Below, piece after piece: positions 42,932 to 64,000 of a DNA stretch of 64,000 bases. The first letter of the stretch is position 1; every line of letters begins with the position of its first letter. Both the position numbers and the translations under genes were made by a program. The stretch comes from Sediminimonas sp. (GTDB lineage Bacteria > Pseudomonadota > Alphaproteobacteria > Rhodobacterales > Rhodobacteraceae): assembly GCF_024637375.1 (NCBI RefSeq), contig NZ_JAGXFK010000018.1:45232-109231 (forward strand), written 5' to 3'. The notes under the pieces were generated by a model. The model did not search any database. It worked only from the letters and a program-made list of their open reading frames with translations, and was not told where the DNA came from.

Positions 42932-43026
42932 CGCGGGCTCCTTTGGGCACGGGTCTAGCGGGGGCGCGCGCACCGCTCAAGCGGTTTCGGGTTGAAGCGA
43001 ACGCGGCAGCGGCCTAGGTTGCGTGA

Positions 43027-43120
43027 CACCTCGGGGTGCCCCGCCGCGCGCAGGGCTGAGATGCCATTTTGGCGAACCCGTTGAACCTGAACCGGTTAAG
43101 ACCGGCGGAGGGAAGGGTTG
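43027..43120 (+). ncRNA. TPP (THI-element) riboswitch
   Basis: CTCGGGGTGCC...GGGCTGAGATG...ACCCGTTGAACCTGAACCGGTTAAGACCGGCGGAGGGAAGG; upstream of thiBPQ. Confidence 0.93.
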
Positions 43121-43167
43121 GATTCGCCTCCTGACTTGCTCCGCCCGTCGCAACAAAGGAGGATGCC

Positions 43168-58342: not shown

Positions 58343-58438
58343 ATTTTTTATGGTACGATTTCGGGTTGGATTTTCTGTTTTCTTCGGGGCGGGATGCGTG
58401 TATTGTTGGTGTGAAGCTTGAAAAAGGATTTACGCGCC

Positions 58439-58762
58439 ATGAAGAGATTTACAGTTTCCGCCTTCGCGCTTGCCGCCGGCCTGGTCACGGCCGCGCCCGC
58501 CGTGGCGCAGGACACCTTCGCCCGTCAGGGCAACGAGACGGCCATGGAGATGGCGATGCGCATCGGGGCCTGCGGCGGCCAGGGCATCAACAACGCCGAG
58601 TTCGTCGAGAACGGTGTCACCCGGCTTCAGGTGCAGTGCCCCGGCGGCATCGCGGGCATGGACGGCGGTCTGGGCGGCGGCGGTGCCGCGGCGGTCGGCC
58701 TTCTCTTTGTTGCGGCCGTGGCCGGTGCCAGCGGCTCTTCCGGGACGACCGGGACGAACTGA
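58439..58762 (+). CDS. Small secreted Gly-rich protein (YjbE/GfcA-like by position and composition)
   Basis: MKRFTVSAFALAAGLVTAAPAVAQ signal peptide; tail GGGGAAAVGLLFVAAVAGASGSSGTTGTN. Confidence 0.7.
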   Translation: MKRFTVSAFALAAGLVTAAPAVAQDTFARQGNETAMEMAMRIGACGGQGINNAEFVENGVTRLQVQCPGGIAGMDGGLGGGGAAAVGLLFVAAVAGASGSSGTTGTN

Positions 58763-58828: not shown

Positions 58829-58864
58829 ACAAAAGGGCGGCACCCGCGGGTGCCGCCCTTTTGT
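58829..58864. terminator. Bidirectional rho-independent terminator
   Basis: ACAAAAGGGCGGCACCCG/CGGGTGCCGCCCTTTTGT: 36-bp perfect palindrome with T tracts both ways between convergent genes. Confidence 0.85.
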
Positions 58865-58950: not shown

Positions 58951-60342
58951 TCAGTCGGTCACGGCACTCAGGCCTCTGTTCAGAAGCGACGGAAGGATCG
59001 AAGAGATCGTGCGATTCCACTTGGTGATCGGCTGTTCTTCGACAAAAACGATGTCGCCGGGGCGCATCTCGAACTTTGTGGCCAGCGTCATGTTCACGGC
59101 GTTGCGCGCGTCCAGATGCCAAGCCGTCACGGCGCCAAACGCGCCCGGATTGATAGACGGGCGCAGCACGTAGATGTTTGACGGATCACCCGTCATCGTC
59201 GGGAACCCGCCATTACCGTAAAGCACATCGGCAAGGCTGGCTTCTTGTTCATAGGGCAAGGCAATGCGGTTCTGCTTGCCGACCTCGCCGGCGAGGTAGA
59301 TGTAGTCACGCGCCTCGGCGCCCAGCTCCTGGCGGGCGCGGAAATTGGCGCGGCGCTCGTCGAGCATGCCGCGGCGCAGGCCCATCTCGGCGCCCAGCAT
59401 GGCCAGCGTGTCCTGGCGCGCCTGGCTGCGCAGGCGGATGACGTCGACCTCCTGGCGGTAGAACTCGAACGCCCGGTCGACGTCATAGGTGGTGTCGACA
59501 TAGACCGCGTCGCCGTTCTTGAGCGGTAGTTCGCGCAGCCCGGGGCGTTCGAGGTAATCCTGGTAGGGTATCTGGTAGAGTGTGCCGTCGCGGTAGATCC
59601 GGATCGAGGCGAACTGCTCGTCGCGGACCTGTACGCCGCCGGTGGCGATCAGCGCGTCGCCCAGGGTCAGCGGAACCAGCGTGACCGGCACCCGCGCGGC
59701 CTGGCGCACCGCGCCGCCCACGGTGACCTTCTTCGAGTTGAAGTCGGTCACTTCCAGCGAGAACGCCGGGTCGACCTGGTTTTCCAGCAGGAACTTGAAG
59801 ATGCGGTCCTGCGCCTCCTGCAGGGTCAGGCCGCCGATCTCGACCCGGCCGATATCGGGGATCGAAATCGCGTTGTCATCGGAGACGGTGTAGCCCTGCC
59901 GCCGGGTCTGCGCGGCGAGCAGGCCGCTCAGGCGCTCGACCGAATTGCCGTTCTGCTTGGTGGCCAGCAGCACCACGTCGCCGACGCCGAGGCGATAGGG
60001 CGGCGGCGTGAAATCCGGCGGCGGGCGCAGCTCCAGCCGGCCGGGGCGCTCGTCGGGGGTGTCCGGCGCGGCGGGCAGCGTGCCCATCCCGCGCGCCTGC
60101 CCGGCCGACGCGGCGGCGTGGAATTCGCGCGGCAGGTTGCGGGGGCTGTAAGGGCTGCGGTTGGCCAGCAGTACCGTTTCGGGGGTCAGCGCGATCTCGC
60201 GCACGTCCATGCCCGCGCCGGCGGCGCGGCTGACGGAGGGGCTGTTGTAGACGACACCGCACCCGCCGGGAAAGACCAGCGCCGCGGCGAGCGCCAGTCC
60301 CATTGCCGTTCGCGCCCGAAGCCTGGCCCTGCCGTGTCTCAT
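58951..60342 (-). CDS. Polysaccharide export lipoprotein (Wza-like outer membrane polysaccharide exporter)
   Basis: Lipoprotein signal ALAAALVFPGGC; YRLGVGDVVLLATKQN; SLBB-type GDALIATGGV; GDIVFVEEQPITKWNRTISSILPSL. Confidence 0.92.
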   Translation of the reverse strand: MRHGRARLRARTAMGLALAAALVFPGGCGVVYNSPSVSRAAGAGMDVREIALTPETVLLANRSPYSPRNLPREFHAAASAGQARGMGTLPAAPDTPDERPGRLELRPPPDFTPPPYRLGVGDVVLLATKQNGNSVERLSGLLAAQTRRQGYTVSDDNAISIPDIGRVEIGGLTLQEAQDRIFKFLLENQVDPAFSLEVTDFNSKKVTVGGAVRQAARVPVTLVPLTLGDALIATGGVQVRDEQFASIRIYRDGTLYQIPYQDYLERPGLRELPLKNGDAVYVDTTYDVDRAFEFYRQEVDVIRLRSQARQDTLAMLGAEMGLRRGMLDERRANFRARQELGAEARDYIYLAGEVGKQNRIALPYEQEASLADVLYGNGGFPTMTGDPSNIYVLRPSINPGAFGAVTAWHLDARNAVNMTLATKFEMRPGDIVFVEEQPITKWNRTISSILPSLLNRGLSAVTD

Positions 60343-60390
60343 TCTTGTCCCTCCGAAATTCGTTGCGTCTATCAATTCGCTGCGTCTTTG

Positions 60391-61023
60391 TTAGCGCAGC
60401 ACGCGCTCGGTTTCCATGTATTGCATCGCCGGGCTGATCCATTGCCGCGACTTCAGCACCGTGCCAGTCGCGTCCAGCCAGTAGACGTTGGTGAATTCGT
60501 GCCGCGGCGAGGTGCAGCGTGCCGCGATCCGGCGCGCGGCGCGCGCGGCGCCGTCGATTTGCAGCGTGGTGCGCGCCTGCCCGGTGCGGCGGCACTGGTA
60601 GCTGCGGAACACGGTCTGGTCCTCGCCGTCGAGATAGGTGCGGATATGCGGGTAATAGCCCCCGCCGCCGGTGCCGCGCAGCATCGCCACGTCGCCCGCC
60701 ACATCGGCCGACATCAGGTCATCGCCCAGGCCCCGCGTCGCGATCAGCACGCCGCCTTGCAGCGACAGCGTGATCCCGTCGAGCGTCTGCCACACCGTCA
60801 CGTCGCCGCTCTCGGCCACCGGGGCCAGCGTGGCGCGCGCGCCGGTCTCCGGGATCGCCACGCGCAGCCGCTCGGGGCCCGTGGGCTGCGGGGCGACGGC
60901 GGCCACGTTGCCGGTCAGCTCCAGCGCCCCGCCCAGCCGGTCGCAGCCGCCCGCCAGCAGCGCCGCCAGCGCCAGCGCCATGCCGGCCGGCCTCAGAGAT
61001 CTGTGTGCCGCCGCGGCTCTCAT
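60391..61023 (-). CDS. YjbF family lipoprotein (GfcB-like)
   Basis: MRAAAAHRSLRPAGMALALAALLAGGC lipobox; C-term FTNVYWLDATGTVLKSRQWISPAMQYMETERVLR; ATGA overlap with yjbH. Confidence 0.85.
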   Translation of the reverse strand: MRAAAAHRSLRPAGMALALAALLAGGCDRLGGALELTGNVAAVAPQPTGPERLRVAIPETGARATLAPVAESGDVTVWQTLDGITLSLQGGVLIATRGLGDDLMSADVAGDVAMLRGTGGGGYYPHIRTYLDGEDQTVFRSYQCRRTGQARTTLQIDGAARAARRIAARCTSPRHEFTNVYWLDATGTVLKSRQWISPAMQYMETERVLR

Positions 61024-63143
61024 CGCCAGAACCTCCCCCAGCCGTCGCGCAGGGCGGGCTTGTGCAAGGGGCGCACCCGCTCGTACAGCCGCCCGTCCAC
61101 GTCGAGGCGCGCGCCGCCGTCGCGGGTCAGCGGGCGGATCGTGGTGCTGAGCCCGTCCTTGTTGGGCTCGCCCGTCAGCCACGAGATCGGCACCGTGATG
61201 CGGATGCCCTTGTCGAAGGAGCCCTCGCCGAAATCATCGAAGGGCACGTCGGTCAGCGTCGCAAACGCGCCCACCTTCCAGCCGTTCCTGAACTCGCGGT
61301 CGAGCGAGAAGGTCGCGCCCCAGTCGCGCGCCAGGTAGCGCCCGGCGTCGATCTGCGCGTGAAACCCGTTCCCCATGTCCCAGTAGGCCGAGACATGGCC
61401 GGTGGCGACCTCGTAGTCGCGGAACCCGAAGCGCTGGTCGAAATCGCGCTGCTTGACGTAGTTGAGCTCCAGCCCGAGCGCGAACGGGCTGTCGGCGCGC
61501 TTCCACAAAAGCTCCGACGACAGCCCGCCATACATCCGCTCGAGATAGCCCAGCGTCACCCGGCCATAAACGTCGCGCCCCGGCTTGAAGTAATACGCCC
61601 CCGTGAGGTGCATCAGCGCCGGATCGCCCTGCTTGTCGTAGCGGGTGAAATCGCTGCGCACATGCGGCAGCACCGAGTTCGACACGCGCGTCGCCGTGTC
61701 GAGATTGCCGACGACCTTCTTGCGCAGGCTGCCCGAGAATTCGACCCCGCGCACGGGTTCGTAGGCGAAGTCGAGCTGGGCGCCGATATCGGCGCGCACC
61801 GGGTCGTCGGGGTCGAAGAAGCTGGGGCTCAGGTAGGGCTTGATCCCCCAGTCGAGCCGCGGATAGCGCTCCGGCGTGGGGCCCGGGCCATCGGCGGCGG
61901 CCGCGATGTGTGTGCGCGCGAAGCTTTTCCAGCTGCCCTCCAGGTCGTGCTCCAGCGCTTCCATGTCGTCGCGGCGGATGCGCAGTTCGGTCACTGGCAT
62001 GCCGTCGGTGATCAGCGTGATATCAAAACGGTCAATGTGGGCGGCTAACAGCCGGGTGAGAACCCGCGCCGTGCGCCCCACCGCCTGCGCGGTCTGGGAA
62101 TAGGCGGTGTTCTCGATCGCGACCCGGGCGCGGGCGCCGTCGATGGAAAACCCGTGCAGGCGCACGCCCTGTTTGCCGAGCGCCGCGGCGAGGCGGGCGC
62201 GCAAGGCGCCGCGCTCCTCGATGTTGCCGCGCCACGACAGCGCGGCATCGGATGATGCCGGGCGCGCCAGCACCGGCGGCGGCGCCGGGTCGCGGCCGCC
62301 GTGGTTGGGCCGGTCCTTGGGGTTGAGCGTCGAGGTGATCTGAATGCCCAGCTGGCTGCCGTAGAGGTAGCGCAGCGACAGGTCGATCCCCGGGCGCAGC
62401 TTGTACGTGGCGCCAAGGCTGACCTGTGAGCGGCGATTGAACGCCGCCGGTGTCTCGCGCGGGTAGGCATCCGGGGAATACTCGGCCACCAGCCTGAGCC
62501 GGTCGGTGGCCTGCCACTCGATGCCGCCGAACAGCGCGGCGTCGCCGCGAAAGAACTGGCCGGTTTCCACATCGCCGCCGACGCCGAAACTGCGCTGCGG
62601 GCGGGTCTTGAAACGATCATCGAACACCCCCAGCGGGTTGGTGAACCCGCCGACCCCGGCCAGCCGGCCCCAGCCAATGCCACCGCTCACCCGCACGCGG
62701 CGGCCAAGCGTCTTGGTGGCGACGACGTATTCCGACGAATAGACACCGGTGCCGAGAAAATCGTTCAGCCCGATGGCCAGCGCCGGGCGCACGCGCCCCT
62801 CGTCGACGAGCCGGTAGTGCAGCGAAAAACTGCGGTCGTAAAGCGTGCTCGTGCCGCCACCCGCGACTTTGTCCAGCACCGCGTAGCGGAAACTGCCCGA
62901 CAGCCGCGGCAGCAACTGGAAGGTCATCGTATTGCGGGTCTGCCCGGCAAAGCTGCTGATGGTGAACGCAAGCTCACCGTCGGGCCGGCTCTTGGCCACC
63001 GGCATATCGATCAGCCCGGGATAGCCGTAGCTGTTGTAGCCGGTTGCGATGCGCGCCTCGTCCGCCCCCAATGCCGGCGCCGCCACGCAAAGCGCAACCG
63101 CGATTGTCGGTCCTATAAATTTTTTGCCTGTTCGCCCTCGCAT
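61020..63143 (-). CDS. YjbH domain-containing outer membrane protein (GfcD-like)
   Basis: ORF 707 aa; PGLIDMPVAKSRPDGELAFTISSFAGQTRNTMTFQLLPRLSGSFRYAVLD; beta-strand rich. Confidence 0.9.
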   Translation of the reverse strand: MRGRTGKKFIGPTIAVALCVAAPALGADEARIATGYNSYGYPGLIDMPVAKSRPDGELAFTISSFAGQTRNTMTFQLLPRLSGSFRYAVLDKVAGGGTSTLYDRSFSLHYRLVDEGRVRPALAIGLNDFLGTGVYSSEYVVATKTLGRRVRVSGGIGWGRLAGVGGFTNPLGVFDDRFKTRPQRSFGVGGDVETGQFFRGDAALFGGIEWQATDRLRLVAEYSPDAYPRETPAAFNRRSQVSLGATYKLRPGIDLSLRYLYGSQLGIQITSTLNPKDRPNHGGRDPAPPPVLARPASSDAALSWRGNIEERGALRARLAAALGKQGVRLHGFSIDGARARVAIENTAYSQTAQAVGRTARVLTRLLAAHIDRFDITLITDGMPVTELRIRRDDMEALEHDLEGSWKSFARTHIAAAADGPGPTPERYPRLDWGIKPYLSPSFFDPDDPVRADIGAQLDFAYEPVRGVEFSGSLRKKVVGNLDTATRVSNSVLPHVRSDFTRYDKQGDPALMHLTGAYYFKPGRDVYGRVTLGYLERMYGGLSSELLWKRADSPFALGLELNYVKQRDFDQRFGFRDYEVATGHVSAYWDMGNGFHAQIDAGRYLARDWGATFSLDREFRNGWKVGAFATLTDVPFDDFGEGSFDKGIRITVPISWLTGEPNKDGLSTTIRPLTRDGGARLDVDGRLYERVRPLHKPALRDGWGRFWR

Positions 63144-63656
63144 GGCCTCTCATTAGCGCATAGGGAAGACAATGGAAGAAGGAATTTGCCCCTGTGGCCG
63201 ATCAGCGTCGGCTTGTTGCAAGTCAATCACGCTGTCAACTTTTGGGCAACGCGACACGTATTGAGAGGTAGCCAAAAAACTTGAACCGCGGCTGGTTTAC
63301 GCGTTACGGGCAATCCACCTAACTCACCTGTTCAGATTTCCCGAGCCACCTCTCTCGAACCAAGCAGAACAAAGCAGGAATATCAAGGCTCGATTCATAC
63401 GGAATAAAGCCGGAATCAGACCCTGATATTACGGGACCCAGGAAGACATCGGGAACCAGGAAAACCCACCCATTTCCGGATCATTTTGACCTGACTCTGA
63501 GCCCGACTCCGAGGGTCTTTCTGGAACCAGAAAAGCACCTCAAAACAGGCCGTAGTGATGCTCTGACCAGCGGACTTGCTTGCCCCCCCCCCGAGAGAAT
63601 AGCACCCCACTTCCCGTGAGGTGGTTAAGTATCTGTATACAGTATATATAATAGAA

Positions 63657-63701
63657 ACCACCTGTCCACGGGGCGGCTGTGCCGCCCCGTGGACAGGTGG
63701 T
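63657..63701. repeat. Perfect 21-bp hairpin in an AT-rich tract
   Basis: ACCACCTGTCCACGGGGCGGC-TGT-GCCGCCCCGTGGACAGGTGGT. Confidence 0.9.
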
Positions 63702-63780
63702 ATAACTTCTCTTTATATATTGGATTATAACATATATAGAGTATAGATAACTACAGGTCAATACTATTTATAGTACCGCT

Positions 63781-63843
63781 CCATACAAAGGACACTCTGC
63801 GAAAAAGCTACGCTTTTTCTTGAGGCCCTTTGTATGTCACTGG
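63781..63843. repeat. Structured element B: nested hairpin
   Basis: Outer arms CATACAAAGG (63782-63791)/CCTTTGTATG (63827-63836), inner GAAAAAGC-TAC-GCTTTTTC (63801-63819). Confidence 0.75.
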
Positions 63844-63863
63844 CTATGAAAGAAAGGGGTTAA

Positions 63864-64000
63864 CAGGCTGCTGAAAAACCCCGCCTGGACAGGGATTTGA
63901 GAACATGATTCACCCTTTTCAGATCACGAAGGGGGTGATGATGCGCGGGACGGACGAGGCGAGCGGGTCGCTGTTCAGCTATGTGGACCTTGAGGAACGG
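63864..64000 (+). mobile_element. Left end of an IS5-like insertion sequence (continues past the window)
   Basis: Terminal-repeat-like CAGGCTGCTGAAAAACCCCG followed by a transposase start. Confidence 0.65.
63938..64000 (+). CDS. IS5-family-like transposase, N-terminal fragment
   Basis: MMRGTDEASGSLFSYVDLEER matches the characteristic N-terminus of IS5/IS1182-type transposases; truncated by window edge. Confidence 0.75.
   Translation, partial: MMRGTDEASGSLFSYVDLEER

Follow-up and report, generated by a model that had tools for sequence, protein, structure and literature searches.

The window, i.e., the whole 64,000-nt stretch of DNA analyzed here, ends where its contig ends, and an AT-rich island with long hairpins lies near this end, in the spacer upstream of the exopolysaccharide operon yjbH-yjbF-wza (Table 1). 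The longest hairpin is ~510 bp from the start of yjbH, the minus-strand gene that precedes yjbF and wza. Degenerate short direct repeats of the CGGGAACCAGGAAAAC type and a C run occupy positions 63400-63600.

Table 1. Features of the yjbH upstream spacer (window coordinates; strand left empty where none applies)
Feature	Position	Strand	Remarks
yjbH (exopolysaccharide biosynthesis)	61020-63143	-	leading gene of the left-hand operon
Solo terminal repeat of an IS3-family element	63312-63357	-	83-98% identity with IS ends of further Rhodobacterales genomes
Short second terminator-like hairpin	63603-63623	-	8 bp, tail CTATTCTCTC; further along the minus strand
T-rich tail of the 21-bp hairpin	63641-63656	-	TTCTATTATATATACT
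21-bp perfect GC-rich stem	63657-63701	-	loop TGT (ACA on the minus strand), then TTTCTATTAT; terminator-like
AT-rich flank, lowest GC of the window	63702-63780		
Promoter-like boxes TTGACC-N17-TATATA	63733-63761	-	outside the criteria of the promoter scan
Second long hairpin, imperfect	63782-63836		outer arms CATACAAAGG/CCTTTGTATG, inner GAAAAAGC-TAC-GCTTTTTC
TTAA, YTAR-type target site	63860-63863		adjoins the IS end
Left end of an IS5-family element	63864-64000	+	ISRssp10-like in plasmid annotation; contig ends inside

The solo terminal repeat is shared with complete elements, and we assigned it to the IS3 family because a complete relative (L009) encodes HTH_Tnp_1 and rve proteins. Neither a further copy of this end in the genome nor a partner end was found; the alignment of a possible left partner at 63262 was weak and was not accepted. 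On the other side of the island, the last 141 bp of the window (63860-64000) are identical to the start of contig C33, as is typical where an assembly is interrupted by a repeat. Homologs of this element were found in 33 plasmid records, mostly from Rhodobacterales, where they are often annotated as IS5-family transposase and in some cases as ISRssp10. The assignment to the IS5 family is based on the conserved IS end, the YTAR target and the DDE transposase read in a homolog (L106), the contig ending before it here. YTAR is the target of IS5-type elements, and TTAA, TTAG, CTAA or CTAG precedes the IS end CAGG(C)... in most of ~25 related copies. The flanks of these copies presented no comparable hairpin. 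The element therefore starts at 63864, and it neither carries nor seeks the hairpin. A hairpin that is IS5-borne or IS-targeted was thus ruled out, the IS starting only after TTAA and related ends being mostly without comparable hairpins. The IS3-family end and the IS5-family element thus define the spacer as an IS-scarred region. No gene 3' end lies beside the hairpin on either strand, and the right side is cut by the IS5-family element. The 158 bp between hairpin and IS contain only a 31-codon open tail, for which no homologs were detected; it was rejected as a gene tail after yielding no tblastn match in plasmids.

Structure of the AT-rich island

The arms of the hairpin (63657-63677 and 63681-63701; ACCACCTGTCCACGGGGCGGC / GCCGCCCCGTGGACAGGTGGT) are 100% complementary over 21 of 21 bp, and the predicted RNA fold has a dG of -48.4 kcal/mol on either strand. 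The sequence and position of this GC-rich hairpin with its TGT loop match exactly what the first-pass annotation had described. The next longest perfect hairpin in the window has 16 bp, and none in 421 kb of the same genome (the window plus a 357-kb sample of 20 stretches) is as long, the runners-up there having 19, 17, 17, 16 and 16 bp. The GC content falls abruptly to 18-33% in the island within a genome of 66% GC, and the lowest-GC 120 bp of the window, at 63700, reach 31% relative to a mean of 66% (sd 5.9%). The AT-rich island reported in the first-pass annotation is therefore the AT-richest 120-bp stretch of the window. None of 200 dinucleotide shuffles folds as well as the island (63600-63866) on either strand (z = -8.8 on the plus and -9.5 on the minus strand). 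Because it is the longest in 421 kb, is located at the lowest-GC 120 bp and folds better than every shuffle, the long perfect hairpin is real, unusual and above chance, and the earlier description of a structured, non-coding feature is supported. A second strong hairpin at 63782-63836 had been overlooked (z = -6.0 on the plus strand and -7.1 on the minus strand against mononucleotide shuffles).

The sequence directly 3' of the 21-bp stem is T-rich on the minus strand only, where TTTCTATTAT reaches five T in eight; the tail is imperfect and interrupted (TTTCTATT), and the fuller sequence after the stem is TTTCTATTATATATA. This T-rich, imperfect tail makes the hairpin terminator-like and weakens the earlier view that it is not a terminator for want of a T-tract. 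Scanning a 900-bp region for terminators gave four matches relative to 0.6 +/- 0.7 in shuffles: the 21-bp stem accounts for two of them, which overlap, and another falls within the IS. Both the 21-bp hairpin and the hairpin at 63603-63623 pass the scan, and they do so on the same strand.

Promoter-like sequences had been proposed on both sides of the hairpin. The boxes are present, with CTGTATACAG at 63633-63642 and TATAAT at 63647-63652 on the plus strand, and TTGACC (63761-63756), N17, TATATA (63738-63733) and TTATAAT (63730-63724) on the minus strand, but their number is at chance level: one sigma-70-like match was found around the island against 0.8 +/- 0.8 in shuffles. The proposed minus-strand box itself falls outside the criteria of the promoter scan.

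Several other hairpins of the same genome are comparable in length. At L122:17674, a perfect 17-bp hairpin (3-nt loop, weak tails) separates the converging CRP-like and OmpA-like genes (names assigned by eye), which likewise weakens the earlier objection to a terminator. Within the window, a 16-bp perfect hairpin with flanking A/T runs (58829-58864) separates the ORFs 58418-58762 (plus strand) and 58951-60375 (minus strand) and is probably a bidirectional terminator. These two cases indicate that long perfect hairpins occur where terminators belong in this genome. The 19-bp hairpin at L117:870-917 (GATTGCCTACCATTGGTAG...CTACCAATGGTAGGCAATC), which separates a TetR-like regulator from a divergently oriented gene, is probably a double operator.

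Searches for copies and relatives

The stem, like the island, occurs once in its own genome. Only short and weak matches to the island were obtained in 148 relatives (query 63150-63866), in 397 genomes of the family (query 63596-63858) and, with the right flank, in 385 genomes of the class. The weak family matches to the stem were rejected, as they are short and mostly coding by eye. There was no related copy of the island in 72,556 plasmid records, 50,697 phage records and viral contigs. A pattern of the hairpin core yielded one match in Streptomyces across 85,000 species and three stretches in viral contigs (two of the same sequence), all with unrelated flanks, and the pattern ACCACCTGTCC...GGACAGGTGGT had one match in a viral contig, which is apparently coding. 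The yjbH upstream regions of seven relatives presented no comparable hairpin. The check for other copies thus revealed none in the genome itself or in the relatives searched.

We did not find a Y1 transposase (PF01797) in the assembly (~88% complete), whereas five control genomes gave matches; this speaks against an IS200/605 or RAYT origin. The proposals of a miniature element or an IS200/605-type hairpin are not supported, as no second copy, homolog or Y1 transposase was found, and that of a replication or recombination site met with no positive evidence. All Rfam matches on the island were below threshold, the best being PK-repBA (RF01089) with 35.6 bits against a cut-off of 45. Like this family, the locus has a long hairpin followed by GGATTATAACA. 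However, the loop has 3 nt here and 12 nt in the model, and no rep gene was seen. Scores of 20-28 bits are also reached by unrelated hairpin families, among them several microRNA models, so most of the PK-repBA score reflects the hairpin.

Interpretation of the hairpin

We tentatively favor the reading of the 21-bp hairpin as a leftward (minus-strand) terminator that was stranded by the IS5 insertion. Such a terminator would be long, factor-independent or Rho-assisted, and would act on minus-strand transcripts. RNA polymerase would enter the island from the right, the 21-bp stem would fold in the nascent transcript and release would occur at TTTCTATTAT; the small hairpin at 63623-63603 might provide a back-up. 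The yjbH exopolysaccharide operon would thereby be shielded from read-through. We infer that the gene once served lay to the right and may have been separated by the IS5-family insertion at TTAA 63860.

As in intrinsic terminators, the GC-rich stem is perfect, the loop has 3 nt and a T-rich stretch lies directly 3' on the minus strand, but the stem is about twice the usual length, the T-tract is interrupted and no gene 3' end is found beside it. According to published surveys, many bacteria can do without U-trails and hairpins frequently work in groups; clustered hairpins and hairpins with poor U-trails are reported as terminators in several bacteria (PMC8355165). In GC-rich Streptomyces, terminator hairpins are reported to be longer and more stable, with a median loop of 4 nt, median hairpin lengths of 32-35 nt and a median dG of about -25 kcal/mol (PMC12207403). 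These surveys, together with the long perfect hairpins found in the places of terminators in this genome, lead us to favor a leftward terminator. Against it, the dG of -48.4 kcal/mol is far beyond the published medians, a perfect 21-bp stem exceeds what termination needs, and the sequence comparisons revealed no conservation that would indicate selection. Our preference is kept modest because the T-tract is interrupted, the stem is extreme and no gene end is nearby.

The main rival, which we consider a serious possibility, is that the island is a remnant of AT-rich DNA of foreign origin (from a plasmid, phage or integrative element) that entered this IS-ridden spacer; the two long hairpins might then be the leftovers of an origin or regulatory region, without present function. 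The abrupt drop in GC content, the IS elements on either side and the absence of the island from all relatives searched are consistent with this scenario. Moreover, the only other comparable AT-rich island of the 421-kb sample (L127 ~2865, 33% GC) is located in a phage-like region with helicase-like and terminase-like ORFs (by eye), probably a prophage. Against it are the lack of matches in plasmid, phage and viral sequences and the expectation that a neutral perfect 21-bp stem would decay unless its arrival was recent. A further scenario, in which the two long hairpins and AT-rich spacers of 63600-63860 form a cis-acting part (such as an origin, or a transfer or recombination site) belonging to an undescribed replicon or integrative element, the rest of which was lost or lies beyond the contig end, appears very improbable.

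A short structured RNA of ~80 nt (an sRNA or attenuator-like leader), transcribed from a minus-strand promoter of its own (TTGACC-N17-TATATA) and terminated at the hairpin, would also fit the strong minus-strand fold of the whole island and the promoter-like boxes that lie a short distance 5' of the hairpin on the strand carrying the T-rich tail. This is unlikely considering that promoter-like matches are at chance, that this box falls outside the scan criteria, that no Rfam family reaches its threshold and that no homologs were found. A cruciform or protein-binding palindrome acting at the DNA level (operator, replication or recombination site) seems quite unlikely: the 45-bp palindrome is perfect around its 3-nt center and lies in AT-rich DNA that could ease extrusion, only 34 of 3000 shuffles do as well as the outer AT flanks in their best reverse-complement match, and the 19-bp hairpin beside the TetR-like regulator offers a parallel, yet no regulator gene is adjacent, the island has no DnaA or IHF box with up to one mismatch, and both a second copy and a Y1 transposase are lacking. 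The least probable reading is that the hairpin belongs to a mobile repeat family (REP, MITE, PATE or IS200/605 end); the lack of copies contradicts it, unless they lie in the part of the genome missing from the ~88% complete assembly. The REP and Br-REP palindromes of alphaproteobacteria are likewise intergenic with IS elements nearby, but they form many-copy families (PMC5082802), in contrast to the single copy present here. IS200/IS605 terminal hairpins and PATEs also share the proximity of a hairpin to IS debris, but the stem here is much longer and perfect, and neither the transposase nor copies accompany it; no matched terminal repeats or target duplication were noted around the island.

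There is no evidence for a new kind of element: the feature is real and striking but solitary, it lies in an IS-scarred spacer, and it most likely represents either a conventional transcription terminator or a remnant of foreign DNA. If it is a terminator, it would be an extreme example of a familiar signal and would help to define how an exopolysaccharide operon is insulated in this alphaproteobacterium; if it is a relic, it would record foreign DNA at an IS hot spot. General understanding is unchanged either way, and the case mainly illustrates that a perfect palindrome, however striking, can stand alone and lack conservation.

Other structured elements

Matches to the stem in L032, L034 and L035 were set aside as part of a different conserved structured element. 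This element (~1420-1650; GTCCTTGCCCACCTTTCCACGGGGCGGGTGCGCTCGCCCCTGACGACGTTCAGGCC...GAGCCTGAACGGCGAAACT, then a hairpin and TTTTTT) is present in three genera of the family, has no Rfam match and constitutes a candidate unannotated small RNA. The window also contains a TPP riboswitch at 43022-43130 (Rfam RF00059, 71.8 bits). Finally, two unrelated viral contigs possess intergenic hairpins with the same 11-bp arm TGTCCACGGGG (L061:11735-11763 and L062:600-638), the former located ~70 bp upstream of a large primase/helicase-like ORF.
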